Assembly (NCBI GenBank): GCA_020744425.1
Contig: JAGMUV010000030.1
Coordinates: 186,001 to 250,000, forward strand
DNA length: 64,000 nt
Direction: 5' to 3'
From: Dactylonectria macrodidyma
Taxonomy: Eukaryota; Ascomycota; Sordariomycetes; Hypocreales; Nectriaceae
Shown here: in pieces, positions 10,641-52,721 of the stretch
Layout: every line of letters begins with the position of its first letter
How positions within the stretch are numbered: the first letter of the stretch is position 1
Translations under genes and position numbers: made by a program
Notes under the pieces: generated by a model
What the model was told of the DNA's origin: nothing
The model's database searches: none
Seen by the model: the letters and a program-made list of their open reading frames with translations, nothing else

Positions 10641-10797
10641 TTAAAGACGCACTAAAAGCGCACTAATAGTTCATTAAGCGGTCAATATCATTCAAAATAA
10701 ACTAAGTACTTAATAAGGCTAACTAATGCCTAAGCTAAGGCAACTACAGACCAGAACTATAAACTAGAACTAGAGCTATAAAACTAGAGATAACACT

Positions 10798-12338: not shown

Positions 12339-12355
12339 GAGAGAGAGGGAGATAA
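12339..12355 (+). other. Polypurine tract upstream of 3' LTR
   Basis: A 17-base run of purines broken only by one T (GAGAGAGAGGGAGATAA) directly precedes the 3' LTR, the position where plus-strand DNA synthesis is primed in LTR retrotransposons. Confidence 0.7.
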
Positions 12356-12356
12356 T

Positions 12357-12531
12357 TGTAAGAGTTAGGGCTGATGGAGCTGTAGTCTTATTAGATAAGA
12401 GGCCACGTGATATAGGCTAGACTAGCTCTTCGGCGAGGGCTAGCTGAGCACTCGCTAAGTGAACGCTTACACACCACCCTATACCTACCTTCAGATCTCT
12501 TGTGTGACACCTTGACAGACCAACCCTTACA
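12357..12531 (+). repeat. 3' LTR
   Basis: Begins TGTAAGAGTTAGGG and ends CCCTTACA, preserving the 6-bp terminal inverted repeat TGTAAG/CTTACA. Followed directly by the ATAAA target duplication. Confidence 0.95.
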
Positions 12532-15500: not shown

Positions 15501-15700
15501 TATAACTTTACTTATTACTTTTAATATAACCTTAGTGCTTAAGTTCCTTTTAGACCCTCTTTTATAAATATTATAATTTTAGAAGAATAAATACAAGCTG
15601 GATTCTAGTTAATTAATTATGCTTAGATATTAGACTTATATATATTATCTTTCTTTTCTTATTATTTCCTTTATTTATTAAAGCTTTTCTTTTCTTTATT
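12532..15700 (+). pseudogene. RIP-degraded long plus-strand frame of unknown family
   Basis: Extremely AT-rich. From about 13321 to at least 15400 the plus strand can be read continuously in one frame in which the stops are TAA or TAG, standing where Gln or Trp would fit. Examples are LKDIIIIFLILLLDSAFIII and RLIEGEYAFL. This implies a former protein of roughly 700 or more residues. I do not recognise a named domain. The pattern suggests one large, once-multicopy fungal gene destroyed by RIP. The segment before 13300 shows nothing I can name. Confidence 0.5.
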
Positions 15701-27443: not shown

Positions 27444-29712
27444 CCCATCGAGTGCGGATGGACCCCATTTTCGCCAAGGGCGGGGTAAAGCCAATCAGGG
27501 CTTATGGGACCACTAGAATAATCGAATCATATGCTAAAATTCAGGGTACCTCGATTCCTCTATAGATTTTGGGTGTGCCAGAGGTACCAACAATCTCCAT
27601 CAGTACATAGCGGTACGTTACAGTCTAAGCAGCCTTTTCGAGTCTTTTTTCGCTGTTGCGGCTGTTGAGTGAGGCTATTCCTAGATACCTCACTTAGAGC
27701 CTCGCGTTTCTTCCTCCTGCCGCAATAGGTGCAAGGCGAGTTAACCCCCCTTGATCCCTTGCGATGGTGCTGCCAAGGAATAGATGTTTTCCTCTTATCT
27801 GAAGCCCGTTGAGGTCGTGAAAGTCTTCGACCTCCTGCTAATGGTCCAAACTGTTGAATAAGCTGGGATGCAAGCAGTCGCCGCCATTGGTACTGGTTCT
27901 TGACCTTTTGCCACTCGGGCTTGCCCCAGAGCTGCAGGAAGAAGCTATTCACAACGATCACTTCTAGCAGGAAATTCCAAGCAAGGGCTTGCCAGCCTCC
28001 TCGACGAATAGGGCGGCTGTATTGATAATAAGACCTCATCTGGTCACTTATATCAACCCCATTCATCTTATGGTTATACTCGTCAATTGCCTCAGGCACC
28101 GGGAGGTTCTTCCGGACGTCTGGGCCGAAGGCTTCTTTCCGGGCAGCCCGCTTTCCAGCAGAGCTTCCGGCCGGTCGGCGCCGGAGACGGATAACCTCCC
28201 GGCCGTCTCGGAAGACGGTTGTCAAGAAGAGGACAAGGGCGTTATCCTTCCAGGTGAATTGGTTGACCTATGAAGAGACAAACTGATCAGTATGGAGATA
28301 TCTATAGAAAGCAGTTTGCAATACCATACCTCCCCATCTAAGGTAGGGATGCAATGGATCTGACCCCAAGGAATACCCTGGCCTTCTGCTTCCTTCTCGG
28401 CGACGAGGATCTTATCTATCCCACTGTCTTTCCGGCAGGTCCCGGAAGCTCCGACCTGCTGCTTCCGGAGGGCCCGGAGAAGCCGTACGGAAGCAAAGAG
28501 ATTATCTAGGAATACGTGGTAGACTGCAGCCGGAAGTAAGGTAATAAGTGTCGTTACAACCCGCTGCGTTGGCGTTAACGGGACCCACTTTGCAGCAGCA
28601 GCTCCAGCCTTGCTGTCTTCCGGCCGGGCTTGAGGGACTAGTCCGTACGGGCCCTTTCCGTGTACGTGCCAGAGCCACCGGAGGCAGTAGCCCGATTGGG
28701 CAAGGATCCAGACCTTGAAGCCGGTTGGGATCGGCTTCGTCGGTATTGTCGTCGTCTCTAGGGACCGGCCCGTAAACCGGACCATAGCCTCGTCAACGGT
28801 AAGGTCGGAGCCGGCTGTATAGAAGGAATCCCCAGTCTCTTGGATATGGGCTGACCACTCGTTTACCTTCCGGTATATATCTGGCATCCCGGCTTGGGCG
28901 GGGGCTTGGGCCCGGGCCTGGCGTTGACCTCCTGACTGGCTGGGCTGGAATTCAGAGGTATCAAAGATACGTAGCTGCCGGAGCAGACTTTGGAAGCGGT
29001 CCCGGGAGATAAACCGGGTGAATAGATAGATAGGATCCTCCTTTTGCTGTTGAGTTGACCAATATCTTGATATTTGAGGTTCGCTATGTATCCCCATATA
29101 AAGCAGGATTCCTAAGAAGAGGTAAATCTCATCTACAGAAGTCTTCCTCCACTCATACACTCTTGACCGTTTAGCCCGGGGACCTTCCTTAGATAACGGC
29201 GCTGCATTCGTCCATTGCACCCACCGCTCAATAAGGCCCCGGGGAACGTACCGGAGGAATAGGTCAAGCGGGGCTGCCGGCAGCTCCCGTATCTCTCGGG
29301 GCCGGGTCGGTACGTCAAAGGGTACGAAGGAGCCCGGCGGCCCGCGCTCGACAGCCGGAGGTTCGTGGGGCCGGACTGTGCTGTTATTGCACTGCTCTGG
29401 CGTACAGTCGGCAGTGCAGGCGACAGCGAGGTCTTCAGGAAGGATCTCAACCACAATACAGCTCCGTACGGAAGCCCCGGAAGCCCCAGAAGCATCGGAA
29501 GCCCCGGAGGCACCGGAGGCATCAGAAGAATCAGAATCACTAGAAGACATCGCAGCATTGAACAAAATGACGGTTTTGGTGGTGACAGCAGGTAAGAAAA
29601 CATAGGTGCAAATGATGTTTCGTCATGTACTGATTGAAGTGCGGAGTAAAAGTGGGTATAAAAGTGGGTATTTTGGCCTTGGCGAAAATGGGGTCCATCC
29701 GCACTCGATGGG
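27444..29712 (-). mobile_element. piggyBac-type DNA transposon in the Helitron gene
   Basis: A 2,269-bp element with perfect 36-bp terminal inverted repeats beginning CCCATCGAGTGCGG (27444-27479 and 29677-29712). It contains one spliced piggyBac transposase gene on the minus strand. CCC...GGG ends fit the superfamily. The flanks are not TTAA: the Helitron frame is restored if a 2-bp AT (27442-27443 and 29713-29714) is the target duplication. Confidence 0.9.
27560..29550 (-). CDS. piggyBac transposase, two exons
   Basis: Exons are 29550-28330 and 28267-27560 on the minus strand, with a 62-bp GTATGG...CATAG intron; 642 residues. The start is the first ATG (MSSSDSDSSD), which leads into a Ser/Asp/Ala-rich region. 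The catalytic Asp triad of this superfamily appears to be present in DLTVDEAMVRFTGR, HVFLDNLF and GVDISDQMRSYYQYSRP. The C-terminus is Cys-rich (CTYCGRR ... CLDCNVPLCTDGDCWYLWH), matching the zinc-binding domain that recognises transposon ends. No internal stops or frameshifts are visible, so the element could be active. It lies wholly within the terminal inverted repeats and antiparallel to the Helitron gene it interrupts. Confidence 0.92.
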
Positions 29713-30010: not shown

Positions 30011-30797
30011 CAGACTTGCGTATTGTGATATGCTAAAGTGATATCACACTGTGCTAAAGTGCTAAAGTGATATATATCACCGTGAATATATATCACACTT
30101 TTTTTCAGCTAAGTGTGATATCACGATAGCTAAAATGCTATCGCCCGTGTAGTACCCTTATCTGATAAGATTAGATAATCTTATCTATAGTACTTTGGTT
30201 GGATCTACTGCAATGAACTTTTTCAACACCCCCTTGTTCTCATCACATCTTTAACACAACATAGGATTTCATAGTGTATTTAGATTCGCAGAATTCCCCC
30301 ATAATCTAAATACGAGTTGTTAGATTCAATCTTTCTTGCTAAGTTGATCATGCACACGCCCTTCCGTGGGATGTGATAGGATACCAACCACAGCTTCTTT
30401 AGCCTGGGCTGTAGCTCCCTACCCTATAGTGATATCAATTGTGACGGGAGCGTCTGGAGTGCTGGACCGAGGGTGGGGTCGATACGTAACTAGGGCGCAC
30501 GGGGCAGGCCACAGGGACTATTAACACGTCTACGCGTCTGCGCGCCTGCCCACTTTCTCTCTTTCCTCTTCATCGTAGTATTCTCGCAATACAGTGGCAT
30601 TACCTCTTGAGTTGATCTCATCTGGCCCGTAACATCAATCATGCTAAAGTGCTATAGTGATATCAATCATGCTAAAGTGCTATAGTGATATCAATTGTGC
30701 TAAAGTGCTAGGGTGATATTCTAGCACACTTTTTGCGAATATGTGAATATGAATATGAATATCACTTTAGCACGTTATATCACAATACGCAAGTCTG
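30011..30797. mobile_element. hAT-like non-autonomous element in the Helitron gene
   Basis: A 787-bp insertion with inverted ends starting CAGACTTGCGTATTGTGAT, about 21 bp, flanked by a perfect 8-bp duplication CCTCCGGC (30003-30010 and 30798-30805). CAG ends and an 8-bp duplication are hallmarks of the hAT superfamily. There is no transposase inside. The interior carries many copies of GCTAAAGTGATAT-type motifs in both orientations. Removing it restores the Helitron frame exactly. Confidence 0.9.
30634..30717. repeat. Three 28-bp tandem repeats in the hAT-like element
   Basis: Units start at 30634, 30662 and 30690 and share ATCAATCATGCTAAAGTGCT followed by ATAGTGAT, the last copy slightly diverged. 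They are related to the sub-terminal motifs of the element and may be transposase-binding repeats. Confidence 0.8.
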
Positions 30798-33700
30798 CCT
30801 CCGGCGCCATCATCCTGGCTATCGATGTATCGTCATCGACGAAGAGCGGCTGAGTCAATTGCCTCAGGACGGCAATGTTCTGGATGCTATCCCTCGAAGT
30901 CAGGTGGATGCCACAGACGTTGGACCCGAGGATGATCAGGAGGCAGAACCAGACCTCGAGGACGAGGTTGCAGTGCCAGATCTTTTGGCCAAAGATACGG
31001 AGCTCGATGCCCTCCGGACCATTCTCGCCGAAGGACCGGAAGATGGCCGGGGGCTTCCTCTAAGATCCCAGACTCAAGTGCAACACGAGCTGGAGCTCCC
31101 GAACATACGCCATACGCCGATCAATGAGTTCAACCGGTCGCACGCCCTGCTCTCCTTAGCCTTTCCCTGCCTCTTTCCAGACGGTAGAGCGGACTTTGTT
31201 GAACCTCGGTTACGCTCTATTGATTATAGGGATTACATCGAGCACGCGATGCGCTGGCATGACGGGCGTTTTGCACGCCACCCGACCTTCCGCTTCGTCG
31301 CCTTCAACACACTAATGCGGTCACAGGCACGTTCACGGTCCAGATTCTTCGTGAAGCAACATGATGGGAGGCATCAGCCGCTCACGCGAGAGCAACTTAT
31401 TCAGGCGCTCGAACACAGCGAGGACCCGGAGGCGCAGGCGCTGATCAACTCGATCACAAGACATGCGGTTTCTATTCGCGGTACGCGTCCATTCTGGAAC
31501 AAAAAGAGGCAGGACCTCGAGGCCTATGCCTATAACCTTGGTTGTCCTGGTGCATTCATTACGTTTAGCCCGGCAGATTTACACTGGCGGAGTCTCTATC
31601 AGCACATGCCCCAGTATGATGACTGGCTAGCCGCCACTGAGCCGGAGAGGATGGCTCTATCGCGCCGCCTATTGCGGCAGAACCCTCACATTGCCGCTTT
31701 CCACTTCTATCGCCGATACTGCCTCTTTCGGGATATCGTGCTAAGCAAGAAGTTCAGCATTACGGATTACTGGGATCGGTATGAATGGCAAGGCCGTGGT
31801 AGTCCACACAACCACGGCCTGTACTGGATGGATAATTGCCTCAGAACCGACATGGAGGAGGAAGCCGCTCGTGATGTATTTGCACGCACGTGGGGATTCT
31901 ATATCACTGCTATTAACCCCGAGCCGAGTAGGACTATGCCTCAGGGTGAGGGAAATCCCCTGAGCGTGGATCCTCTGAGCATAGAGATGACATTCCTGCG
32001 GCTCTCACAAATCGTCAACCGTTGCCAGCGCCACAAGTGCAATACCACGTACTGCTTGCGCGTGAGGAAGAGAACCGGTGATCTGGCGAGGGACATGGAA
32101 GGTGCTGCTGCGGATATCGAGGCCGCTAACGCGGCCAATCCAGAGAGGGAGTGTCGCTTTGACTTCCCTCGTGCCTTGCGGGAGCTGGCCGCAGTGATCA
32201 GGAAGGAAGGCAGGTCGTACTACGTCTTTGAGGCGGCCCGGAATGACAGCCTTATGAACAACTTCAATCCTGCGATTATCCTAGGCTGGCTAGCCAATAT
32301 CGACATATCTCCTTGCACCAGCTTACAGGCGGTTATTACGTACGCTGCGAAGTATTGCAGTAAATCTGAGAAGAAGACCGAGTCTTTCGCCAGGCTTGCA
32401 GACCAGGTCTTGCCTCACACATCACACGTTCAGCCCCTGTTGTCCTTCTCCTCTCGCCTGATGAACAAGCTGATTGCCGAGAGAGATTACTCGGCGCAGG
32501 AGATTTCTCATCTGCTGCTTAACATTCCGCTGCAAGAAGGCACCCGTATGGTTGTCACCGTGGACTGCCGTCCATTGGAGCGACAGGCGCGTTCGTATCG
32601 TGTGGATGGAGATGTTAACGAGGCCATCGGCAGCTATAGGAAATATTTAGAGAGAAAGGACCAGCATGAGGATGTAACGTATCTCGAATACCTGCAGTCG
32701 TACAATCTCAACACGTGGAGGAGACTCGCTGCTCATGCGAAGAAGAGGGTCCTGTCTTACTTCCCTCGATATAAATCCATGGAAGCCTCTTCCCAGTTTA
32801 ACGACTTCTGTCGTATTAAATTGATGATGGTTCATCCACATCGCTTTCCAGAAGAGTTGCTCGTGGTGGGTGGCCAGCGGTTCGATTCTTTCACAGCTGG
32901 GTACATGCGCTGCAGACAGCTCCACGATACCCATGCGGACGATCATTATGGAGAGCCGGATACGGATGAATTGACGGCAGAGGACGATGAGTTTGAGCTT
33001 GAGGCCCATGAGGAGCCCATCGCAGAGGAGGATTGGCATGAACTCGCCCGCATGCTACCTGACCGCCCGCTGGAGGAAGAGGACATCGACATCCTCGGCC
33101 GCCGAGATATTGACATTAATTACGATTGGACCCCTCATGTTGGGCGGTATACTGATGATGGCATTCTTAACGGCGACTACTGGAAGCAACGCAAAGCGGA
33201 AAACACCCTTGACCTTGACGTGGATGATCAGCCATTAGAGGCTCGCGATTCCCTAAATCCAGAGCAGCGCCTGGTGTACGACACAGTGATGGGCCACTTC
33301 CTGACCCGGGATCCCTCCCAGTTGTTACTCCATGTGGATGGCGGAGGCGGCACTGGGAAGTCATACCTCATTAACCTGCTCTCAGCGCACCTTCAAGCCG
33401 CGACACAGGGGAGGGGGGCACCTGTTTGGCGTGCCGCGCCCACGGGCGTCGCGGGAAATCAGATTTCGGGCACTACCTTGCATTCCCTGTTGCACCTGCC
33501 AATTAACAAGGACTTCAAGCCTCTCTCAGCTATTGATAAGGCCCAGCTCCAGAAGAAGCTTAAAGATATTAAGTATCTGATCATTGATGAGAAGAGCATG
33601 CTAGGACTGCGTCAGCTATCTTGGATCGATGACCGTCTCCGAGAGGCGTTCCCGAATAAGAACGAAGAGTTCTTTGGCGGCTTGAACATCCTGTTAGTTG

Positions 33701-34775
33701 GTGACTTTTTTCAGCTTCCCCCTGTGCTGCAGAAGCCGCTTTATTATGATAAAGAGGTTCAGGGAGTAGAGATTAAGGGCAGAAACGCATATAGGCGATT
33801 CGATAAATCGGTCTTCTTGAAAGTTGTCCAGCGGCAGCGTGGCGACGATCAGGAGGCATTCCGCCTAGCTCTCGGGGAATTACGGCTGCTTCAACTATCT
33901 GTGGAGTCCTGGAAGCTCCTTTCTAGCCGCGTACAGGCAAAACTAGACGATCAAGAGGTCGCAAGGTTTGTCAACGCCTTACGAGTATACGCCACTAAAG
34001 ATAGGGTGAACGAATATAACCACTATCACCTCGACCGCCTCAGCCGGCCAGTCATCCAGGTCATGGCTAAGAACGTCGGCTCTGGCGCGGCTACTGCGCC
34101 TGATGATAAGGCGGGCAACCTTGCGAAGCAGATCCCTATATGCATTGGCTCCCGTCTGATGCTGACGTCCAACCTTTGGCAGCCAGTTGGCCTCTGCAAC
34201 GGCGCTCGCGGCACAGTTTACGATATCGGCTGGGCACCTGGGGCCGACCCCATCCAAGACCCTCCCTGTGTTATTATGATTGAGTTTGACAAATACAGCG
34301 GACCGGTATTCCTAACCACCGCTGATGGCAGGAAGATTGTGCCAATTCTCCCAGTAGAGAGGGACTTCCTCATCGGAGCCACTCTCTGCACTCGCACCCA
34401 GTTCCCCCTGATCGTATGCTATGCAATTACTGTGCATAAGTCACAAAGCATCACCGAAGACATGATAGTTACAGATCTGTCCTGCCGGGACTTTCAGACT
34501 GGTTTAAGCTACGTGGCTGTCTCTCGCGTGAAAACGCTCGACGGTCTGATGTTAGATGCACCATTTAATCGTAATCACCTGGTCTACGGGTCTCCTCCGG
34601 ATGGCATGAAGATGAAGATGAGGGATCAGAAGCTTCGGAAACGACAGGTGCTCACACGGAATCCGTACATGTCACATAATACCAATAATGGCCATGGCAA
34701 TGGATCAGTACGTAGATAATGCAGTAGTAGTAATAGCTTCCCGGCCCGCGGACACACAGCCTTCGGCTGAGGCTA

Positions 34776-34833
34776 CCCCATGCACCTCATCGCCGCTCCA
34801 ATGTGCATGGGGTGACGTAGTATTTTATACTAC
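34776..34833. other. Two hairpins downstream of the Helitron gene
   Basis: A 10-bp stem (CCCCATGCAC at 34776-34785 pairing with GTGCATGGGG at 34803-34812) is followed by a 7-bp stem GTAGTAT...ATACTAC (34817-34833). Helitron 3' ends carry a short hairpin just before CTRR, but CTRR is not evident here, so this is only a candidate terminus; transcription termination is an alternative. Confidence 0.4.
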
Positions 34834-34922
34834 AACCCATGCGCGACAACACATATGCCACAATCCACCTAACAGCGCGCCATCTTATTTTTCTTCTGAA
34901 AGTCAAGTGTCGTATTTGATTC

Positions 34923-36510
34923 TTATAAAGAAATGCTATTTAGAATGCCGAGGACCTTTTCAATATACCTCACACCTACCGCCACTCCATCCTCATCCTG
35001 GAATTCTCGTTCGTCACCAAAATCCAGGTTGTCCTCGTCCAGACAGGTTAAGCATGTCTCGACCACCTCGCTGTATTTAGTACCCATCTTGGCTCTCAAC
35101 ATGTTGCTACGACTAAGAGTAACTAGGTGCTCCTTCAGTATATTGGGACTCTTAAGCTGTGACCTGTCTTCAGCGAGACTAAGAGCTGTTGACGGCTGCG
35201 CAGCCCCGTCGGGGTCGTAAGTAACGAGCGACTCCCACAGACCAATCTCAAGAAGGCATACTCCAAGGCTGTAGATGTCGTGCTGCATCACATAGTAGTC
35301 GACGTTGTTTCCCTGCCGCAGCGGATGCCGGTACAGATTGGTCTCCCACTTCATATCGGTCACCGGGTATGTCCTCCCATCTGCATTTCGGATGACCTGA
35401 AACCCAACTAGGCATGCCATGCTGGAGAGTCTCCCCTCCTCCGTCTCGCTGAGGCTCAGTATCGTCTCAGGGCGGATATTCTTGTGTACGAACCCGTACA
35501 AGTGAACGTAATAGACAGCATTGACAAGCTTTTTCGCCATCTCGAGGCGGTCGGAAAGTGAGTCATGGGCTTGGCCGGAGAGCAGCAGTTGCCGAACAGT
35601 GCGGATGGCCGTATATCCCTCTGGAACCCGGAAGAGGAAGGCCATGCCGGAGGTCTTACCCTGCCGCACGACCCCCTTGCAGCTAAAGACTCCAAAGGTG
35701 AAGGGATCCGAGTCTCGAAGACGGCGGGCAAACTCCCGTGCGTCTTTGGACTGGACTGCCCCGTTGGTGACCATGTCGACAATGAACCGTCTGGAGTCTC
35801 CTGGACGCGTGGCTACCAGGGCCGTGCAGGACAAAATGGCTTCTTTGTTATAGCCGTTTAGCTCCTCTTCGCGAATAAAGACGCTCTGGGATTCTGTCGA
35901 GGGCCCTTTGAACGCTCGACGAAACTTCCGGGCTACCAAACTGAAGTCCGCTGCTCCCGTAGGTCCGGTTTTGATGACGTTATTGAGCGTCACGTCAACA
36001 GTAGGAGGAGCAAGTTTGATCAAGTGAAACCAAGAAGGCTCGTAGAGTCTCTGCCAGGATTCCAGTTCCGCTATAGTCGCCTCAAGGGTATCCTTCAACC
36101 GCACGTACTGTAGCTTTTTCACCATTTCGGGCATTGGGCGCTGGGAAAACTTTGAGAGATTCTGAGTAGCTGCATCCAACTTGCCCCGGAGGACGCAAAG
36201 AGTTCGCTGTTGAAGAGCTTTGTGGTCGTCGGTCATGGTGCTTTCTAGCTCCTTGGTCACCTCCAGCTGGCTGAGAACTCGTGTCCAACACACTTCAATG
36301 CGGACAATCATCTCGTCGACCTTGGCGTCAGCTTCTCGGTAGTCCTTGCAGGCCTGAACCAGAGCCTTTCCCCATCTTTTTTATATTTTAAATCTGGTTA
36401 GCCCTTATAATCATCAGTGATATCTATGGACGTATTGTCTTGGATACATACTTTATGCATAAGTCGATAGACCCAGTAAGGCCAATAACTCCAATAGCGA
36501 ACTCAGCCAT
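34923..36510 (-). CDS. HeLo-domain pseudokinase (MLKL-like architecture)
   Basis: Exon 1 is 36510-36452 and exon 2 is 36375-34923, with a 76-bp intron (GTATGT donor, GCTAACC branch, AAAAAG acceptor); 503 residues. The N-terminus (MAEFAIGVIGLTGSIDLC ... KDYREADAKVDEMI) resembles HeLo-type helical bundles, which in fungal cell-death proteins act at membranes. The rest is kinase-like but catalytically dead: HRD is replaced by HKN (317-319) and DFG by VGF (343-345), while the later fold motif DIYSLGVCLLEIGLW is kept. The second exon alone would begin mid-domain at Met42; the first exon supplies the missing helix. The neighbour across a shared 1-kb upstream region is an active-looking kinase with ankyrin repeats. 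Role inferred: regulated cell death or incompatibility executor. Confidence 0.78.
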
Positions 36511-37505
36511 TAAATGCTGAAACCTAGAAATCAGTGGAATTCTCGAATGTCGTGCTCAGGTGGAAGCCCGGATATGGGTAGTGCTACCGTTGCTTCAGTG
36601 TACGCCTGAGTAGGAATACAGACACGATGACAACCCAACCCGAGAGTCGATCGGGGCGAGGGGAACTGACTAGGGGTCAATCCGCCTCCCCTAAGACAGC
36701 GATTTGCAAATGGGCAAGTGCGCGGACCGCTAACCTTTCTAGTGTTGCAAATGGTGTGATAATGACGTGGAAGGCTGAACGCCGTCTGAACGGCCGTCCG
36801 TAGGTGACTTGCTAGGGTCACCCATCCAAAGTCTTTATGGCGCCAATAGTTGATCAACGCTTGTGCACGAGTCCTACACACTGCGGCAATTCCGCGATTC
36901 GTCAGGATAAGACGTTGGGCCTCAATCTGGCAATGTCATCAACCGACCTTCTCAGAAATCCCGCTGGGTAGGGTGTCCGCCACAGCCACAGATATGGCAC
37001 CTTCTATCACCTGCGACAGTACGTAGAATGTCAGGAAATCAGTTTGTGATGTATTCGAAACTCATGCTAATATTGATGCCGCACATCGATTGTCTTTTTA
37101 ATGAAGTGTGTACCGCGATGGCTGGGTCTCCAGCTAACAGGGGGATGATGCAAGCTGATCTAAACGGGGGTAGCGCTTACAAGCCGGATGCAGACAGGGA
37201 GCTTCCCAGCCTGTGCCTCTGCGCATACTTATCTCACTAGGCAGATCGCATGACCGAAAAAAATGGACTATAGGTAATGGTGATTTGCTTGATTTAGGTA
37301 TCCGTGGCCCAACATATTAGCCGGTACAACCAATTAACGTACGTAGTAGAGCAGCAGGTGACAAGTCGTGACTTATGGCGTAAACGCTAGCTAAGGTCCC
37401 ACTTCATTCCCTGCCACTAATGGTCATGGCGATCATCCAGGTAGAATTCTGTCCCATTTCCCCTAAGATTCACCCATCGCCGAATTTGTGGAAATACTTA
37501 TCTCA
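36511..37505. promoter_or_regulatory. Shared upstream region of a divergent kinase pair
   Basis: A 995-bp gap between the start codons of two divergent genes. No open frame with recognisable motifs and no transposon ends are seen. It probably holds both promoters; no specific TATA or operator can be assigned. The frame upstream of the kinase ATG stays open until a TAA at about 37462, so an extra 5' exon of that gene could lie here. Confidence 0.45.
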
Positions 37506-39827
37506 ATGGAGGATGAACTACCGGATCATGTCCGGGACTACAAGCTGGAGACCACATTCCCTAAGAAACGCGAAATTGTCCATATCTATGATGACCCTGA
37601 TGCGCCTCCATCGTCGCAACAACGGTTGGAATGTTGGAAGAGCGACAAACGGCCCATTGGCCGTGGCGGCCAGGGGCAAGTTTTTTTACAGACATGTACC
37701 AGTGGCAGTAGACATTATACCCATCGCGCAGTGAAAACAATCCCACTTCAGGATGGCAGCGGAAGACGACGATACATTCGAGAGCTCGAAACCATTGTCA
37801 AATTCTCTCACGACAAGGTATGTGCTCGTCTGGGTTTTAATATCATGCCACAGCCAGGCCGTTCAGCGCGATAACAGTCTATAAAGGCACTTTATGCTAA
37901 CTCGGACGAGTAGTACTCCAAATACTTCGTGAAGTCGCTGGGATGGTATGAGAAAAAGGACTTATTGTGTATCGCCATGGAGTATGTCCCTACAGGAGAT
38001 TTGCAGACATATCTCTGCGATCATCCTGCCTTGCCTGAAAGCGACTCCCGCCAGATCACCAGTCAAGTGCTGCGGGGCTTGGCAATCATGCACGGAGAAG
38101 GTTTTGCTCACCGTGACATAAAGCCTCAGGTGAGTGAACTCCGAAAAACTCGACCGCCGTTCAATTTGGCAGTGGACAAGTATCTGATCTCCGACACAAG
38201 AATGTCTTAATTCAACAACGTCCAACGCCTACAGAGCCAGGCTCTTGGTGGGTTAAACTTTCAGATTTTGGTATCAGCAAGAGACTGGAAGCAGCTACTA
38301 GCGGCGCAAGCACAGTGATCGGTACTGTCGAATACATGGCACCGGAGCTCTTTGACCAAGACAGCCTCCCGGATATCAACTACCCGGCAGCAGACATGTG
38401 GGCCTTGGGCGTCATGACCTTCTGGATATTGACCAAGTCTCGCGTGTTCTCGAGTCAACGGCATTTCTTTCAGTATGAAGCGCGCCCAGACACACTCTTC
38501 CCTCGTGGCTCTTTGGTCGATTTTCATGTCAGCCTAGACGGGCAGGCTTTTATTCGTGCTTTGATGGGGCCGAAGCCGGATGAACGACTAGACTCTAAAG
38601 CAGCCATTTGTCATGCCTGGGTTCAGCCTTGGATGCCAAGTGCGCCGATAATCCCAGACGATCGCAGCGAGTAAGTCCAGCGACTCATAGAATATTCTGA
38701 GCTGACAGTTGACGATGTAGATCATCAACTTCATCTTCCGGAAGGAGTTCGTTCGATGAAGAGAGGGGAATGACAACACAGGTCTCAAATATCACCGATC
38801 TGCCAAATGCTTTGCAAACGGGCTCGAATACCCAACTGACCGTTATTCCACGGACGCTGTTACAAGAGGTGCTTAACGATCACATATCGAATTTCCATGC
38901 TGAAGGGTCAGCAGCTAACCGTCTATACATGATCAGGCCCAGACACCACCAGCAGTAGAGATGTGGGACGAGGCCGAGGTCGAGCTGCTTCTCGAGAAAG
39001 GCGCTGACCTAGAGGCCAAAGATGGCTCCGGTCTGACACCGCTGTTGTGGGCAGCAGCGACCTGGCACGAGGCCTTAGTGAAGCTGCTTGTTGAGAAAGG
39101 CGCCGACCTAGAGGCTACAGATCGCCACAACCAGACACCGCTATTGCGGGTAGTAGCGAATGGGCACGAGGCCATAGTGAAGCTGCTTATTGAGAAAGGC
39201 GCCGACCTAGAGGCCAAAGATGGCCAAGGTACGACACCGCTATTGTGGGCAGCAAGAGACGGGCGCGAGACCATAGCGAAGCTGCTTGTCGAAAAAGGCG
39301 CTGACCTAGAGGCCGAAGATGGCCGAGGTACGACACCGCTATCGCATGCAGCAAGGTATGGGCACGAGGCCGTAGTGAAGTTGCTTGTTGAGAAAGGCGC
39401 CGACCTAGAGGCTAAAGATGTCTATGGTTGGACACCGCTATTGCTAGCAACAGGGACTGGGCGCGAGGCCATAGTGGAGCTGCTTATTGAGAAAGGCGCC
39501 GACCTAGAGGCTAAAGATGGCTCCGGTCTGACACCGCTATCGCGGGCAGCAGATAACGGGCTTGAGGCCTTAGCGAAGCTGCTTGTCGAAAAAGGCGCTG
39601 ACCTAAAGGCTAAAGATAGCAACGGTTTGACACCGCTATCGCAGGCAGCAAGGCATGGGCACGAGGCTGTACTAAAGCTGCTTATCGAAAAAGGCGCTGA
39701 CCTAGAGGCCAAAGATGGCCACGGTTGGACACCGCTATCGCATGCAGTAGCAAACGGGCACGAAGCTGTAGCGAAGCTACTTTCTAAGAAAGGCGCCGAC
39801 GTAGAGGCCAAAGATAGCAACAGTTAG
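37506..39827 (+). CDS. Protein kinase with ankyrin repeats, premature stop near the C-terminus
   Basis: Model: 37506-37817, 37914-38129, 38201-38670, 38721-38868, 38937-39827; 678 residues. Introns are 96, 71, 50 and 68 bp and all junctions keep phase. The kinase has a glycine loop IGRGGQGQVF (51-60), AVK lysine (K77), HRDIKP (D172), DFG (D198) and MAPEL, so it looks catalytically active. From residue about 391 there are nine 33-residue ankyrin units of the form E.L.KLLVEKGADLEAKD..G.TPL, highly alike. The ninth unit reads SNS-stop-TPL where others have W or L: TGG to TAG at 39825. The frame then continues for 28 more codons to TAA 39911, so the last repeats were lost recently or the protein is simply shorter. 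Kinase plus ankyrin recalls RIPK4-type signalling proteins. The start is the first in-frame ATG and may be preceded by another exon. Confidence 0.82.
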
Positions 39828-39911
39828 ACACCGTTATCGCAGGCAGCAGCGAATGGGCACGAGGCCATAGTTAAGCTACTCCAAACCTATACTATTACCG
39901 TGAAGACCTAA
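38961..39911 (+). repeat. 99-bp ankyrin-coding repeat array
   Basis: About nine and a half 99-bp units in direct orientation, differing mainly at the positions that form the ankyrin beta-turn and surface. Such internally homogeneous arrays can change copy number by unequal recombination. Confidence 0.9.
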
Positions 39912-41134: not shown

Positions 41135-41907
41135 ACTGTACATAGCATGACACGGATCTGGTCAAGCTTTCCGGGAGACACTCGGGGAGCCATTAAGTGC
41201 TGTGTTGATGAGCCTCTTCTGGCTCATGGAGCAGGCTAGCTTGCGGTGGGGTGGAAGGTCAAGAATCGTCTGCGACCACTCGGGGTTGCTGCCTTGTCGC
41301 TAGACGCTTGATGCCTGAGGCAAGCTTAAGCCTGTTGTGGCCGCAGCTCAGAAGAATTATCGCTTCAAGCACACCCTGAGTTAGCCACATACAGTCCCAC
41401 ATTTACGAACCTGCAGACATTAAAACACGACCGAGGAACATAAGCTGGACTGTAATATGCACTTTATTATTTCCGTTACCTAAGTACTACGTCAGCATCT
41501 ACTCGGCATAGCAACGGAGAGCGTAGGAGGGAAAGAGATAACTCAGATAAGTGCCGCACGAAATTGTCACAACATATTACACACACACACACACACAATT
41601 TATTTCGCCCGGTGGCTTATAACCAATAGGGCACTAGTTGCTATTGTACATATCCATTTCCCAAATTTTGCCATGATCTCGTAGAAGCCCTTACAGCGTC
41701 CAATTTTTGCTTTTGCCTCTTCGATTTTCCGTCTCTCCGCAGAATCTCGTGGGGTTTGTATTATTGGCAAGCTAACTTGAAGGCTATTCTTCAAGTGTTC
41801 AGAGTCCTATCTACGGCGGCTGAAGCGGTGCCTGCTGTCCATGGCACGAGGTGTTTGATGTAGGGTAGGTTAGTAAGAGAGAATAGGTAAGGTTTCGCAA
41901 TCTGTTT

Positions 41908-43443
41908 TCAACGTCGTGTGTTGTCGAGTCGACCTGTGGCTATCGCAAATCGTATAGTTGCGCGGACTGCGCCCATATTTGGCGTCCATTTTGCATCGTC
42001 TGATGGCGATTTTCCTCCCAGGAAGAACGAGAGATTTCCTCTTTGTGTCTCGGTGCACTGCAACATTTCGGTTCGGTATGCCGTCCATTTTCTGCATCGA
42101 AAGAGAAAATGCTCAACCGTCTCTGTCGCTTGTCCACATGCGCATTGTTGTGATGGTGATGCTGTGATCCGAAAGAGGTATCCATTCAATCTGGCCATGC
42201 CTGTCCTGAGCTGTGCCAGCACGCTGGCTTCTCTCCATGACAAGCTATCGTATAGTTGTCGAGTGTGCTTCCCTGGTAGTGCAGCATCGACTCTCTTCGA
42301 AAACTTTCCGACATTGTCTGGTAGGTGTTTGCTAGTACACTGGCTCAAACGAGCTTTGTTAAGGGTCGTCGATCGCATTCTGGGAAACTTCAGAACCGGG
42401 ACGGCACCGTCTCGGGTTGCATCCCGCGCCTCTTCTTTAGCAGCCTTCAGGAGCTTGTGTTCAGCACTAGTGGGAATCCATATGACAGTCACCGAATTTC
42501 CATTGACCTTCAACGTGTCGATGGAATCGTATATGCATCCAACATACTCTTGACCAGATTGTTGGCGGGGATTTCGGATCGTAAGCACGACAGCCTTGTT
42601 GCTCGTCAATAGTGCCACGCTTCGGTATCTCAGGTCAGGTAAGTGCCTCAATGCGTATGCCATCGCCGCCAGCTCCGCAGAAAACGGGTTCTGTTCCGTT
42701 CTCATGCCAAGCGTAAAGGAAAATCGTTCCCGTCTCGGCCCTCCCCGCACCGACACAGGGATCTCAATGACCCCGCCGACTCCTACTACACCGCTCCGTG
42801 CTGAACTGCTCACTGCAACCCGTATTGCCCAGCCCAGATCTGCTTGCCTCGTCTCTGTCTCGTCCTTGTCGACAACGATAGTTTGTACCCGTTCTGCCCA
42901 AGGTGCCAGTGTGAATGGATTAACCGTTTCTAACTCCTCCATCGGTATCTCATTGAGTGCCACTGCAAGCTCGTGAAATGGCGAGCGATTGTATCTTCTG
43001 AACTTTCGGATACGAGATGTAGCGTTGCGGAGTGGGTTGGTTGCTGGCAGGGTGTGGAGGTCAATCCACATCTTGATCGCCCGCCTCCAGAAACGCTCCT
43101 GTGCACTGGCGATATGCGCCTCTGCTTCTGCTACGCTTGTTGCCACCGTGAGAAATGTTCCCACGATCGCTTGTGCCCCAATCCTCTGGACTCGGTTGAT
43201 AGGGCTGGCCCTTCTGTACTTACATGCGTGCATCCAGACGTTTGAGGCATAATCCATCACAGGGGCCACCATGGCTGTAAACAGTTGTCTTGCTGTTGCT
43301 GGGGTAAGACCCCTGAGCCTCTGACCATCTGTCGGGATGGTCTCTAGTGCAGCGGCAATTCGGGCGTTTATTTCCTTCCATGGTGCATTTTTGAGTAGGA
43401 GTCGTTCCTTGGCCTTTGGCACCGGGAGCAGACATCCCAACAA
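41908..43443 (-). pseudogene. LINE ORF2 C-terminal part: thumb-like, RNase H, Cys-rich tail
   Basis: A 511-codon open frame lacking the polymerase core. It starts with the post-polymerase region (RQLFTAMVAPVMDYASNVWM), common in Tad/I-type LINEs. An RNase H-like domain follows (GVGGVIEIPV ... NPFSAELAAMAYALRHL ... IWIPTSAEHKLLKAAKEEA). Near the end is a CACGQATETVEHFLFRC zinc motif. The fingers and palm with the catalytic YxDD are absent, because the 1.4-kb insert at 43436-44854 sits where they should be. It is protein-identical to the mirror frame at 50859-52394. Translation from the first in-frame codon is doubtful. Confidence 0.85.
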
Positions 43444-44854
43444 GCAGTACTGATTGATAAGGCCTTTACTGATAACTGATCGATTGATTACTATGCTACT
43501 GATACTGATTGATTAGCTTATCAGTAAATGCCAAGACATGACGTAATCAGGGTTCAAGTCCACTGAACTTCAGGCCTCAGTTGATTGGATTCAGGGTTTA
43601 CACGTGACGTAAAGAGGTCCGTGCACTCGTGCACGGGTCACTGAGTGATCCTAAATCCACGGGAAGTGCTCCTGGAGTATCATGGATTTGAACCCTGAAC
43701 GGAATTGTCCCTTCTCGACGGCGAAACGACAACTGGGAAATATGACTCGAACCAGGGTGGAATCAATGCCAGCAAGGCGCTCTCGCCAGGAAAAGTACAG
43801 CCACTATGCCTCCAACTTGTATGATGGATATTTTGTAGAGACCAGCGTGTTTGCTGGAATGTCAAGTGCAAGCTTCGAAATCGATCGACCAATCGATTTG
43901 ATCGATTCGATTAATCGATTCGATTTCGATTTCGATCGATCGATCAGAGCTGCCAGTCGATCGATTTGATCGTCGATCGGGTGGACCATATATAAATCGG
44001 TGAGGTGCAGGGTAGGCTGCCCTGGATTCTGCCTCTGTGTGGATCGCTACACATCGCATGCCCCACAAAGCACCCCTGGCAGGCGCGATTGGTGGAGAGA
44101 CGCTGCTGTTGAGTGCTTTCTAAGGAGGAAGGCGCCCCACCACCTTCCTTTTTAGGATTCCGCAGCTTCGTTGTCTCGTCACGTGAGGCTCTGTCTGATC
44201 GATTTGATCGATCGATATCGATCGACTGAGAGGGCCGCTCGATCGATATCGATCGATTGAGGGTGACGATCGATATAAATCGATCGATCAGGACTTGTAA
44301 TCGATCTATACGATCGATTTCGAAGCCTGGTCAAGTGCATTGCGCAGCACAGTTACGTGAGTCAACCTACCCTATACAGTGGATAAGGGCTACCGCATAT
44401 CTCACCTGTTTGTTGTGGCGGGGCTGGTACTTATTAACTTCTCTGGGCTGGTTTCCCTGGAAAGATAACAGGCGCTTCATCGTCCCTCATGTCACGAATA
44501 TTCGATTTGAGATATCGATTCAAAGTAAAAAAAAACTGGGTTGCCGTTGAATATGTAGAAAGTAATTCTGGGTTCAGACACGGGCGATGGGTTGTGTTGC
44601 TGAGTACCTGATTTACCGCACTGATCGCAGCGATCTGGATGTACCTGCTAACACATCTTAGCACCACGTAGGACTGAATTGATGCACTGTGGCAGGCAAC
44701 TACTACGTAGAATGTCACAAAATATCGACGCTACGAAAAACCTGGTCACGTGCGTTACTGATTACTGATTGATTGATTAGGGGCTTACTGATACTGATAA
44801 CGTATCAGTATCAATCAGTAATCAGTACTGATTGATAACTGACTGCTTGTTGGG
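43436..44854. mobile_element. 1.4-kb TIR-bounded insert replacing the LINE RT (left arm)
   Basis: Bounded by perfect 12-bp inverted ends CCCAACAAGCAG (43436-43447) and CTGCTTGTTGGG (44843-44854), with sub-terminal repeats of TACTGATTGATA type. It has no transposase and no matching flanking duplication. It lies between the endonuclease and thumb regions, where about 400 codons of reverse transcriptase are missing. It contains a nested 461-bp element at 43869-44329. Confidence 0.75.
43869..44329. mobile_element. hAT-like MITE rich in GATCGAT motifs (left arm)
   Basis: A 461-bp element with ends CA(A/G)GCTTCGAAATCGATCG and a perfect 8-bp duplication GTCAAGTG (43861-43868 and 44330-44337). Its sub-terminal regions consist of overlapping ATCGAT/GATCGATC words in both orientations. 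No coding capacity. CA-starting ends plus an 8-bp duplication suggest hAT. Confidence 0.82.
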
Positions 44855-45592
44855 ACCTCTGACCGGGAGCGAAATGTCGAACTCCGTCTCAATGGCACGA
44901 TGATCGGAGCCATGCTCTGTACCGTGTATCGCACATTTGACAGCTGAGGTCGCTAGGTCCTCGGATGCGAGGACCAGGTCGATCGTTGATTCATGTTCTC
45001 CGCCTTGCCAAGTCTTCGTGCCTCTCTGGAGCAGACTGCTGAGAGCAAACTCACTCATCAGATCGATGATTTGGTCTGCCTCGCCCTGTCTCTCTAGCGA
45101 GACATCCTCCCCTCCCCAGAGCTGATCGTGGCGGTTGAAGTCGCCCGCAATCACTACGTCCACCACTCTTCCTGCGTCTCGCCTCGTATCTTCAATAGTT
45201 TTACGTAGGTTGTCGCATGCCTTCCTCAGCGCCTCAACTTCAATTCCTTGAACATAGACAGAGAACACCAATATTGAGCGTTCCGGGAGTCGTATCAGTG
45301 CCGCCGTTATGTCTGGGGACTCAATCGGCACCTGCTCGGCATCCAAATCGTTCCTGATCCAAAGCATGCTTCGGATCGCCCATCTGCCTTCTCTGTACGT
45401 CGGTGGTACCATCTTCATCCACTTATGGTGTGCCATTGGAGTCGTCAAAAGACGGCCCTTAATCCTCCGCGCTTGTGGTTCCTGGATGGCTAGCACTGCT
45501 GCGTTCTGAATGTCTTTATCGTTCATCAAACTTTCATGAACTTCGCCGCGTTTTCGTACGTTGAGCTGGATCATTCGAAGCGTGCTACTCAT
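44822..45592 (-). pseudogene. LINE endonuclease domain (left arm), truncated by insert
   Basis: ORF2 starts at ATG 45592, overlapping the ORF1 stop by 8 nt (ATGAGTAG), as in many fungal LINEs. It encodes an exonuclease-endonuclease-phosphatase type domain: IQLNVRKRGE, VVIAGDFNRHDQLWGG, STIDLVLAS and the catalytic GSDH near the end. These enzymes nick target DNA for primed reverse transcription. The frame runs into the TIR insert after RGPNKQ and ends a few codons later. All residues needed for nicking seem present, but the protein lacks reverse transcriptase. Confidence 0.85.
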
Positions 45593-46904
45593 GCGGAGAA
45601 GGGTAGAGCTTCTTGCAATTTCTGCTGAACGACTCGTGGGGACCCCCACAGAGCACACACTTGAAGATAGTTTCGTTGCATGTGCTATGGTGGTGACCTT
45701 CCTTTGCGCATTTTCCACAAATCTGGGTGTTGTTACATTGGAAAGCTTTATGACCGACTTGTTGGCAGTTGTAGCACTGATTTGGGCGAGGTCGGCGTTC
45801 GAACACTCTGGCGTATCCAGATTCTCCTCCAGCATAAAAGAAACCCTCCGAGAGGAGCCTTCTTGCGTCTGAGCCTTTGGTAAGGTAAACGACCATTGAG
45901 CCGTATGCTTTTGGAATGTCTCTTTTGCTTAGCCAAACTATCTTTGCAATCTGCGTGTCGTTTTCCTTTCCAAAGGCCTCGGCAGCTCCCGTACGGATGT
46001 TACCCGCTTCATCCAGCACTGCTATGCGCTTGACGTTATCCACTTTAATGGGATAGAGCTCATCCCGTAGCACCCGGGCGCCTCGTGCCAACTTGGCTCC
46101 CACCAGTCGTTTCACCATTTGGTGTTCAGCTTCATCTCTGCACACGATCCTGATACGGTTCCGGCTCTTCCGGTCCTTGGTTACCGCCTGGCAGCGCCAG
46201 CTGGACTGGCCCTGCTCAGCACGTACCTCGCTCTCCACGATAGTCCGGATAGCACTTGCTGTAATCAGCTCCGCTTCTTCCTTTTCCACCCTCGATGTGT
46301 CGACCGTGCAATAAAACGCATCGGTGAGGTTCGAGGGCGATATGTTGCCAGATGGGATGCTGCTAGGTTGGGCCGAGGGTGGCGATGGCATGACGTCAGC
46401 GAAGGAGATGTGCGGGGTAGCTGCCGCGCTCGTGGCGATAGCTTCAAGTTGTTCGCGAATTCGCTTCAACTCATCGCCCATCTGCTTCTTGGTGTCTTCC
46501 AATTGTTGACTCAACTCTTGGGCCGCATTTTGCTGCTCCTCAGCTGCTTCCTTCAAATCTCGAATTACCTCTTGCTGGTTGCTGATGACCCCGTTCTGCT
46601 CCTTGATGGCTTCCCTTAGCCCTTGGAACTCAGCGCGGTACTCGCCCAATAGCTCCAAGGCCTTCTGGAGCATCGCCCTTCCCTCGTTGTTGTTGCTACT
46701 GTTTCCCTTCCTTGGGTCTGTCGCATGATCGGCTTCCCCTTCAATCGTTGTCGCTCTCGTTGTCGCTCTCGTGGCATATCGGCTGCTTTTGTTCGGTTCT
46801 TTCGCAGTGTCCTCGAGCTTTCACTTCATGCTTCGAAGCCTCATCGGCGTCGACACGCGGCCGCTTGGCCCCACCAAGGTCTCGGCGTTTGCCAGAGAGG
46901 TCAT
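45585..46904 (-). pseudogene. LINE ORF1 (left arm), nonsense-mutated
   Basis: A coiled-coil/gag-like protein with C-terminal zinc knuckles (CYNCQQVGHKAFQC, CGKCAKEGHHHSTC, then CVLCGGPHESFSRNC). It binds the LINE RNA. The ATG at 46904 (MTSLANAETLVG) is followed after 27 codons by TGA at 46823-46821, absent from the right-arm copy. A downstream Met at 46673 could give a 362-residue product. Confidence 0.85.
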
Positions 46905-47391: not shown

Positions 47392-48717
47392 ATGCCCATT
47401 CTGGCAGGCGACGAGACCTTGGTGGGGCCAAGCGGCCTCGTGTCGACGCCAATGAAGCTTCGAAGCATGAAGCGGAAGCTCGAGGATACCGCGAAAGAAC
47501 CGAACAAAAGCAGTCGATATGCCACGAGAGCGACAACGAGAGCGACAACTGCTGAAGAAGAAGTCGATCATGCGATCTATCCGAGGAAGGGAAACAGCAG
47601 CAACATCAACATCAACGAGGGAAGGGTGATGCTCCAAAAGGCCTTGGAATTATTGGGCGAGTACCGCGCTGAGTTCCAAGGGTTAAGGGAAACCATTAAG
47701 GAGCAGAACGGCATCATCAGCAACCAGCAAGAGATGATTCGAGACTTAAAAGAAACAGCTAAAGAGCAGCGAAATACGACCCGAGAGATGAGTCAACAAT
47801 TGGAAGACACCAAGAAACAGATGGGCGACGAGTTGAAGCGAATTCGCAAACAACTTGAAGCTATCGCCACGAGCGCGGCAGCTACCCCGCACATCTCCTT
47901 CGCTGACGTCATGCCATCGCCACCCTCGGCCCAACCTAGCAGCATCCCGTCTGGCAATATATCGCCTTTGAGTCTCACCGATGCGTTTTGTTGCACGGTC
48001 GATACCTCGAGGGTGGAAAAGGAAGAAGCGGAGTTAGTTACAGCGGCTGCTATCAGGACTATCGTGGAGAATGAGGTGCGTGCGGAGCAGGGCCAGTCCC
48101 GCTGGCGCTGCCAGGCTGTGACCAAGGACCGGAAGAGCCCGAACCGGATCCGGATCGTGTGCAGAGATGACGCTGAACACAAAATGGTGAAACGACTGGT
48201 AGGAGCCAGGTTGGCACGAGGCGCCCGGGTGCTACGGGATGAGCTTTATCCCATTAAAGTGGATAGTGTCAATCGCATAGCAGTGCTGGACGAAGAGGGT
48301 AACATCCGTACAGGAGCCGCCGAGGCCTTTGGAAAGGAAAATGACACGCAGATCGCAAAGATAGTTTGGCTAAGCAAAAGAGACATTCCAAAAGCATACG
48401 GTTCAATGGTCGTTTACCTTACCAAAGGCTCAGACGCAAGAAGGCTCCTCTCGGAGGGTTTCTTTTATGCTGGAGGAGAATCTGGATACACTGCAGGGTT
48501 TGAACGCCGACCTCGCCCAAATCAGTGCTACAACTGCCAACAAGTCGGCCACAAAGCTTTTCAATGTAGTAAGATCCAGATCTGTGGAAAATGCGCCAAA
48601 GAAGGTCACCACCATAGCACATGCAACGAAACAATATTCAAGTGTGTGCTCTGTGGAGGTTCTCATGAGTCGTTCAGCAGAAACTGCAAGAAGCTCTACC
48701 CTTCTCCACATGAGTAG
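47392..48717 (+). CDS. LINE ORF1 nucleic-acid-binding protein (right arm), intact
   Basis: 441 residues from ATG 47392 (MPILAGDETLVG) to TAG 48717. The central region is a predicted coiled coil rich in Glu/Gln/Lys (residues about 80-160). The C-terminus has zinc knuckles CYNCQQVGHKAFQC, CGKCAKEGHHHSTC and CVLCGGSHESFSRNC. In related LINEs this protein packages the RNA. Unlike the left-arm copy, it has no premature stop. It overlaps ORF2 by 8 nt, suggesting coupled re-initiation. Confidence 0.88.
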   Translation: MPILAGDETLVGPSGLVSTPMKLRSMKRKLEDTAKEPNKSSRYATRATTRATTAEEEVDHAIYPRKGNSSNININEGRVMLQKALELLGEYRAEFQGLRETIKEQNGIISNQQEMIRDLKETAKEQRNTTREMSQQLEDTKKQMGDELKRIRKQLEAIATSAAATPHISFADVMPSPPSAQPSSIPSGNISPLSLTDAFCCTVDTSRVEKEEAELVTAAAIRTIVENEVRAEQGQSRWRCQAVTKDRKSPNRIRIVCRDDAEHKMVKRLVGARLARGARVLRDELYPIKVDSVNRIAVLDEEGNIRTGAAEAFGKENDTQIAKIVWLSKRDIPKAYGSMVVYLTKGSDARRLLSEGFFYAGGESGYTAGFERRPRPNQCYNCQQVGHKAFQCSKIQICGKCAKEGHHHSTCNETIFKCVLCGGSHESFSRNCKKLYPSPHE

Positions 48718-49480
48718 CACGCTTCGAATGATCCAACTTAACGTACGGAAACGCGGCGAAGTCCACGACAGTTTGATGAACGATAAGGACATTCAGAACG
48801 CAGCAGTGCTAGCCATCCAGGAACCACAAGCGCGGAGGATTAAGGGCCGTCTTTTGACGACTCCAATGGCACACCATAAGTGGATGAAGATGGTACCACC
48901 GACGTACAGAGAAGGCAGATGGGCGATCCGAAGCATGCTTTGGATCAGGAACGATTTGGATGCAGAGCAGGTGCCGATGGAGTCTCCAGACATAACAGCG
49001 GCACTGATACGACTCCCGGAACGCTCAATATTGGTGTTCTCTGTCTATGTTCAAGGAATTGAAGTTGAGGCGCTGAGGAAGGCATGCGACAACCTACGTA
49101 AAACTATTGAAGATACGAGGCGAGACGCAGGAAGAGTGGTGGACGTAGTGATTGCGGGCGACTTCAACCGCCACGATCAGCTCTGGGGAGGGGAGGATGT
49201 CTCGCTAGAGAGACAGGGCGAGGCAGACCAAATCATCGATCTGATGAGTGAGTTTGCTCTCAGCAGTCTGCTCCAGAGAGGCACGAAGACTTGGCAAGGC
49301 GGAGAACATGAATCAACGATCGACCTGGTCCTCGCATCCGAGGACCTAGCGACCTCAGCTGTCAAATGTGCGATACACGGTACAGAGCATGGCTCCGATC
49401 ATCGTGCCATTGAGACGGAGTTCGACATTTCGCTCCCGGTCAGAGGTCCCAACAAGCAGTCAGTTATCAATCAGTACTGA
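48710..49480 (+). pseudogene. LINE endonuclease domain (right arm), truncated by insert
   Basis: Starts with ATGAGTAG overlapping the ORF1 stop. Domain motifs are as in the left copy (GDFNRHDQLWGG, STIDLVLAS, GSDH). Only a few residues differ from the left arm, for example VPM versus VPI, all upstream of about 48998. It terminates inside the TIR insert. Confidence 0.85.
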
Positions 49481-52394: not shown

Positions 52395-52721
52395 AAACAG
52401 ATTGCGAAACCTTACCTATTCTCTCTTACTAACCTACCCTACATCAAACACCTCGTGCCATGGACAGCAGGCACCGCTTCAGCCGCCGTAGATAGGACTC
52501 TGAACACTTGAAGAATAGCCTTCAAGTTAGCTTGCCAATAATACAAACCCCACGAGATTCTGCGGAGAGACGGAAAATCGAAGAGGCAAAAGCAAAAATT
52601 GGACGCTGTAAGGGCTTCTACGAGATCATGGCAAAATTTGGGAAATGGATATGTACAATAGCAACTAGTGCCCTATTGGTTATAAGCCACCGGGCGAAAT
52701 AAATTGTGTGTGTGTGTGTGT

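Follow-up and report, generated by a model that had tools for sequence, protein, structure and literature searches.

The subject of this analysis is a divergent gene pair in a window of 64,000 nucleotides of Dactylonectria macrodidyma DNA (C24:186001-250000, contig JAGMUV010000030.1, in a genome of 77.3 Mb). The minus-strand gene encodes a putative HeLo-like helical domain joined to a pseudokinase, and the plus-strand gene encodes a kinase followed by ankyrin repeats. The reading favoured here, as a probable one judged from sequence analysis, is a two-gene module of the cell-death type in which a sensor kinase would control a membrane-acting pseudokinase. Pairs of this kind recur among diverged paralogues and with two kinase classes, and every locus count given below comes from this single genome.

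Linkage of Pseudokinase and Kinase Genes

Pseudokinase loci were collected in two protein searches (36 matches, and 40 with a distant paralogue as the query), which were merged by hand into 38 loci; C43, C27 and C40 were found only by the second search. Three weak rows (C34:3901693, C2:1719097 and C23:2292383) were excluded, and the truncated C14, the degraded C40 and the weak C12c and C39 were retained. Class A comprises the window gene, C10a, C4, C77a, C12a and the recent copies, and class B the remaining pseudokinases compared. Three kinase searches (139, 140 and 47 rows) were merged into 159 loci, and these lists are lower bounds, with 122 of 368 and 121 of 184 candidates scored in two of the searches.

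A kinase match was located within 6 kb of 27 of the 38 pseudokinase loci, compared with a mean of 1.2 and a maximum of 7 linked loci in 2000 trials of random placement. The linkage of the two genes claimed in the earlier note, a test fixed in advance, was far beyond chance in this genome. The arrangement was divergent at 22 of the linked loci and convergent at one, the kinase lay downstream on the same strand at two, and at two both matches fell in one open frame. None of 37 control HeLo-only rows had a kinase within 6 kb (Fisher 6.6e-12), and among canonical DUF7580 (PF24476) rows a kinase neighbour was present for 1 of 25 (Fisher 4.9e-8). Collapsing five recent copies to one left 23 of 34 loci linked (Fisher 1.1e-10). 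These tests assume independent loci, an assumption that paralogues violate. The HeLo-only set included the HeLo row C34:3900922, although C34:3901693 is located about 0.6 kb away; no kinase row lies within 6 kb of either.

Upstream flanks were read at 5 of the 11 loci lacking a kinase row. The flank of C76:804615 holds a further divergent kinase-like frame (Pkinase 1.1e-5, under the cut-off), which raises the linked total to 28 of 38. Divergently upstream of the pseudokinase at C76:524760-527600, a fragment of NLR-type DUF7779 (Pfam) was detected, perhaps a swapped sensor. The other kinase-less flanks contained one zinc-cluster-like protein, recognised by eye, and in two cases nothing recognised.

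The association was also visible from the kinase side. Of the 14 rows scoring best with the class B kinase of C56, a list that contains this kinase itself, 12 were located within 6 kb of a pseudokinase, and the C39 kinase, another of these rows, about 7.5 kb from one. At C13:972594-976044, a class A-like kinase follows a DUF7580 protein (5.9e-17, MSGFEVAGIVLG near its start) on the same strand, suggesting a further type of pair. A single 766-aa frame at C5:508322-510619 carries both a kinase of the active type (Pkinase 5.1e-27) and DUF7580 (8.1e-7), and at C21:889253-891358 the match tables place the kinase and pseudokinase matches alike in a frame of 789 aa on a single strand. Such fusion frames support a joint function.

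Division of Catalytic Motifs between the Partners

In 18 compared pairs, the partner kinases kept the HRD-type Asp in every case (one as NRD) and the DFG Asp in all 17 that could be read (DHG once, DFS three times). All 18 pseudokinases had Gly in place of this DFG Asp, 15 of them reading GF, and 17 lacked the HRD Asp; C18 reads HKD and C1b was poorly aligned. Five of the pairs combine a Rad53-like kinase with a class A pseudokinase and the other 13 an HGD-type kinase with a class B pseudokinase.

Copies of the window pseudokinase on C34, C28 and C9 are open and 95–96% identical, and a fifth copy on C14 is truncated: at C14:1006925-1009454 the pseudokinase match breaks off some 33 residues in, and kinase matches are still present. 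The ratio of nonsynonymous to synonymous substitution rates (dN/dS) in exon 2 was 0.14–0.18 among the four open copies (six pairwise comparisons), so that purifying selection appears to act on the pseudokinase in these recent copies. Both divergent genes announced by the earlier note are present; the low dN/dS and the three further open copies show the pseudokinase frame to be no chance reading. Most other paralogues are 27–45% identical to the window pseudokinase across the matched stretch.

Structure of the Gene Pair in the Window

The features of the pair are collected in Table 1. The minus-strand open frame spans 34923–36380. The predicted exon 1, MAEFAIGVIGLTGSIDLCIK, starts the product and is separated from exon 2 by a 76-nt intron, giving a spliced model of 503 aa. 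A short exon 1 of like kind also precedes four distant paralogues, and all five distinct class A genes open with a short first exon coding a hydrophobic stretch. The window pseudokinase matched Pfam Pkinase with E 5.8e-5, under the curated cut-off, and its kinase matches were all sub-threshold; the kinase fold is indicated by family profiles, which matched many solved kinases. The earlier note had reported HKN and VGF in place of HRD and DFG. The first substitution was seen again, and VGF was ruled out, the alignment in register giving GFQ at the DFG position. The intergenic region presumably acts as a shared promoter region.

The plus-strand gene (37506–39827) consists of five exons, 37506–37817, 37914–38129, 38201–38670, 38721–38868 and 38937–39827, all of them sequence-based predictions, with a non-canonical fourth donor. 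Pfam matches were strong for Pkinase (E 7.7e-46) and Ank_2 (E 3.5e-93). The complete kinase with ankyrins described by the earlier note was found, the catalytic motifs being intact and nine repeats present. The end of the gene had been placed at 39911, which is the next stop; the frame is already closed by the in-frame TAG, which cuts the last ankyrin repeat off the gene.

Table 1. Features of the divergent gene pair, in positions of the window.
Feature	Position	Strand	Remarks
Exon 2, pseudokinase preceded by a HeLo-like helical domain	34923..36375	(-)	HKN, GFQ; stop 34923-34925
Exon 1, HeLo-like pseudokinase gene	36452..36510	(-)	ATG at 36510; hydrophobic N-terminal stretch encoded, mean hydropathy 1.63
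Intergenic region	36511..37505		995 nt between both start codons; ~88-95% alike among duplicated copies
Kinase domain, partner gene	37506..38670	(+)	three predicted exons; AVK, HRD, DFG
Predicted linker exon, kinase to ankyrins	38721..38868	(+)	non-canonical donor GTGCTT after exon
Ankyrin-repeat exon	38937..39827	(+)	nine 33-residue repeats counted; in-frame TAG at 39825-39827
Same frame prolonged to TAA	39828..39911	(+)	rest of ankyrin-like repeat, outside predicted protein

In a comparison with solved kinases, the window kinase was nearest to Rad53 and then to DAPK3, and the class B partner kinase of C56 (the sole second-class kinase compared) to CTR1, LRRK2 and MAP3K12. A RIPK-like partner kinase, in the sense of kinship, is not supported by these results, and RIPK kinship of the window kinase was rejected. 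The core [IV]Q[IVLC]G of the RIP homotypic interaction motif (RHIM) type, searched for as one simple pattern, was absent from the kinase part of the window partner and from eight class A pseudokinases.

Ankyrin Arrays

Ankyrin repeats lie downstream of the kinase at the window pair and at C28, C34a, C56, C1a and C8, are located in the following frame in C18 and are weak in C76c; for C9 and C14 they were recognised from DNA matches. The scan covers the partner frames that were read, a part of the pairs, and ankyrins were seen with class A partners, with class B partners and at C8. The number of motifs differs between copies: 9 in the window copy (ahead of its stop), 15 in C34a (plus degenerate units) and 16 in C28. 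The better rows of ankyrin-region DNA between copies were 74–82% alike, partly with repeats out of register, compared with 95–96% identity of the pseudokinase protein. Variation among the window repeats is clustered at positions 10–13, 17–18, 20–22, 24 and 27–28, a pattern that would fit a fast-changing recognition surface.

Relation of the N-Terminal Domain to HeLo

The Pfam HeLo profile gave 56 rows genome-wide, and 17 of the 38 pseudokinase loci carry such a row; C10b also passed the HeLo cut-off, though it had no row in that scan. Class A, to which the window protein belongs, is without direct HeLo matches; its N-terminal profile was compared with nine HeLo-positive N-termini using hhalign, and a score of 33.3 over 130 columns was obtained (probability 43.5; E 2.4e-4, for a single comparison). 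Twenty column-shuffled decoys scored at most 12.5 and the reversed profile 14.3. The bridging members C56 and C76a aligned with both the class A and the HeLo-positive groups (probabilities 82 and 85). A class B profile (10 sequences) matched, with its N-terminal half, the HeLo domain of HET-s in the PDB (2wvo, SMALL S PROTEIN, 8.1e-13) and, with its C-terminal half, MLKL (4btf, 9.9e-13). These comparisons support a transitive link of the window protein to HeLo, through HeLo-positive paralogues. The HeLo similarity of the N-terminus, the second test set beforehand, was supported for the window protein by profile–profile comparison and not by a direct Pfam match. A scan of viral contigs found no relative.

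Surroundings of the Pair

The window pair sits in a transposon-rich region. A frame with Helitron_like_N and PIF1 helicase matches occupies 30712–34840, and the stretch from 34720 to about 34827–34840 has at least 41 genome matches among those listed, itself included. The possibility that the pair is Helitron cargo was held unlikely because the repeat matches stop there, before the gene, and because the block common to the window, C34, C28 and C9 ends just beyond the pseudokinase stop. On the other side, an inverted repeat (41581–46695 and 47607–52721) has 5115-nt arms that are 98% complementary and 911 nt apart; the arms carry mirror-image retrotransposon-type frames, with RVT_3 and zinc-knuckle matches in one arm. 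A DDE_Tnp_1_7 transposase frame is located at 28225–29622 (minus strand) and a DUF6570 frame at 62087–62956 (minus strand). Positions 1–18000 form an AT-rich block (GC content 20–36% in 2-kb steps, compared with about 46–58% elsewhere), which we would guess to consist of mutated repeats.

Relation to MLKL and Evidence Weighing against the Proposed Module

A mixed profile of 15 family sequences searched against the PDB retrieved MLKL first (4m68, 1.7e-10). In this alignment mouse MLKL reads HRN and GFE where the fungal profile reads HKN and GF(D). The likeness is limited by three results, and with these begins the evidence that counts against the proposed module. The class A profile (8 sequences) retrieved HRI first (2.4e-7) and MLKL only at the 53rd row (6.6e-4). 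For the kinase-fold segment of class B alone, MLKL was first by little (9e-12, followed by IRAK4 with 6.8e-11). After masking of the HRD and DFG positions in this segment that lead was gone, MLKL (1.7e-7) being the fifth row, with LIMK1 (4e-8) and HRI (5.6e-8) ahead of it. To call the pseudokinase a specific relative of MLKL would thus be an overclaim, and the decay shared with MLKL may be convergent, given the loss of its lead on masking. The family is best described, from these profile searches, as a pseudokinase of broadly tyrosine kinase-like (TKL-like) affinity with decayed motifs resembling those of MLKL, rather than one of proven common descent with it. The MLKL likeness claimed earlier is supported in its architecture and decayed motifs.

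Further results point the same way. No Pfam HeLo (PF14479) match was obtained for the 503-aa window protein at a limit of E 10, with filters that remove most matches above about 0.1. The single-sequence model of the exon 2 N-terminus is all-helical, but weak (mean predicted local distance difference test, pLDDT, 59.3), and a fold search with it gave no PDB match at E ≤ 0.001; the full-length model (pLDDT 37.5) was too weak to help. After the flank reading, no kinase was found at 10 of the 38 pseudokinase loci, and class A-like kinases are less closely tied to pseudokinases, some occurring away from them; of six such kinases with the upstream flank read, one had a related DUF7580 protein there. 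Ankyrins were absent from the partner frames read at C4, C10b, C76b, C76d and C34b. The split into two classes is not clean, as C56, counted as a class B pair, has a pseudokinase whose nearest neighbour by distance belongs to class A. It is this split that accounts for the mirror-tree correlation over all pairs (r 0.66, p 5e-5); within class B (r 0.15, p 0.23) and within class A (r −0.31) co-evolution is unsupported. Finally, the window copy itself may be impaired because its ankyrin frame ends early. Better representatives of the system may be the copies at C28 and C34a, whose ankyrin frames are not cut short.

Discussion

The proposed two-gene module would work as follows. The kinase–ankyrin protein would be both sensor and switch, its ankyrin array binding a ligand or a non-self protein. 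The active kinase would then act on the neighbouring pseudokinase, most simply via phosphorylation. The HeLo-pseudokinase is the presumed executor, its helical bundle being restrained by the dead kinase domain that receives the signal, and on release the hydrophobic N-terminal helix would enter the membrane. The sequence of events, from interaction and phosphorylation through helix release and membrane attack to cell death, is drawn by analogy with HET-S and MLKL and from the linkage, and any part played in immunity or the recognition of non-self is likewise presumed. In the earlier note the pair was a sensor kinase within an MLKL/RIPK-type module; the linkage, the HeLo relation (in its transitive form) and the MLKL-like architecture of that proposal survive, and the RIPK kinship does not. 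More tentatively, and with slightly less than even confidence, filamentous fungi may possess a whole family of modules akin to necroptosis. Each would be built on a sensor kinase, in many cases bearing ankyrins, that turns on a HeLo-pseudokinase directly; at least two kinase classes (Rad53/DAPK-like and TKL-like) would have been recruited, with diversification by pair duplication and ankyrin reshaping, as an immune repertoire would show.

Three other explanations were weighed, all of them unlikely. The one that survives best is a poison–antidote or selfish pair, with a harmful HeLo-pseudokinase kept off by the linked kinase and the linkage kept because separation kills. Killing on separation would suit the spread of pairs in transposon-rich DNA, such as surrounds the window pair, and near-identical pairs are indeed present on five contigs, the C14 copy having a truncated pseudokinase with its kinase matches kept. 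A kinase with an ankyrin array is, however, an odd shape for an antidote. The majority of pairs are diverged rather than recent movers, and C12b, C10d, C9b and C40 have a Pfam HeLo row and no kinase within 6 kb, C40 being interrupted by stops.

More doubtful still is a guard/guardee arrangement. The pseudokinase would here serve as a decoy substrate, with the kinase either monitoring it or being monitored by it, and the helical domain would act in binding instead of attacking the membrane. Pseudokinases are often decoys or scaffolds, and the transitive nature of the window protein's HeLo similarity would accommodate this reading. Two features that suit a membrane role speak against it: each of the five distinct class A genes begins with a hydrophobic N-terminal stretch, and class B N-termini find their best PDB match in the HeLo domain of HET-s. 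Least probable is linkage without joint function, with pairs duplicated together and kinases serving separate roles, which the non-significant mirror-tree correlation inside the classes and the class A kinases without pseudokinase neighbours would allow, but which fits poorly with the divergent orientation of 22 of the 25 unfused pairs, kept among 27–45% identical paralogues and with two kinase classes, with the single open frame carrying both domains, and with the controls.

Comparison with Known Systems

HeLo-pseudokinases have already been published, and the pairing with a kinase would be the new part. A kinase gene paired with a HeLo-pseudokinase was not found in the portion of the open-licence PMC literature that was accessible, which is weak evidence of novelty, and no such pairing is described in the available parts of PMC12881547, PMC11476962, PMC10197012, PMC5485727, PMC12258605, PMC9815663 and PMC4835503.

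Among fungal proteins, a comparable group is that of DUF7580, matched by 6 of 15 aligned family members; the window protein had no DUF7580 match (Pfam, limit E 10), and the other DUF7580 rows are, with the single exception noted above, not linked to a kinase. RIPK4 and DAPK1 combine a kinase with ankyrins, and the window partner shares with them an active kinase with C-terminal ankyrins; RIPK4 kinship finds no support, the window kinase being nearest to Rad53 and then DAPK3. Plant MLKL proteins consist of a membrane-acting helical domain and a kinase-like domain. In this the window family would be like the plant MLKL homologues named in PMC12881547; a difference is that the accessible parts of that paper mention no linked activating kinase for them. 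According to the excerpt of PMC11476962, MLKL homologues exist in both fungi and plants.

Executors adjacent to their controlling genes are familiar in fungi. The sections of PMC12881547 at hand describe HeLo executors under NLR control through amyloid signals and gasdermins under protease control, and report that more than 80% of fungal gasdermin genes cluster with a protease gene. In these gasdermin–protease pairs (HET-Q1/HET-Q2 type) a pore-former is located beside an enzyme, in many cases one with sensor repeats, in so far as the source sections cover them; in the pair studied here a kinase replaces the protease and a HeLo-pseudokinase the gasdermin. HET-S/HELLP and NLR clusters share with it the HeLo-type domain and the adjacent sensor gene (PMC12881547 and PMC10197012, as far as the available parts go). 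They differ in their sensor, an NLR where the present pair has a kinase with ankyrins. The executor of this pair also has a pseudokinase attached, and no amyloid motif was found by the single RHIM-type pattern tried.

The closest parallel in function would be the MLKL/RIPK3 step of necroptosis, in which MLKL is activated by a separate kinase (PMC12881547, available part). Both systems have a helical membrane-acting N-terminal domain, presumptive in the fungal case, followed by a kinase-dead domain, with GFE in mouse MLKL and GFQ in the window protein. The N-terminal domain of the window family is, in contrast, of the fungal HeLo kind, the partner kinase is Rad53/DAPK-like, and the lead of MLKL among solved kinases is small and dependent on the decayed motifs. 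If the module is real, a HeLo-pseudokinase under kinase control would provide a fungal equivalent to the RIPK3–MLKL step. One could then test whether membrane-lytic cell death governed by a kinase through a pseudokinase is common to different kingdoms or has arisen repeatedly. The roughly 28 natural pairs in one genome offer material for comparing pair specificity.

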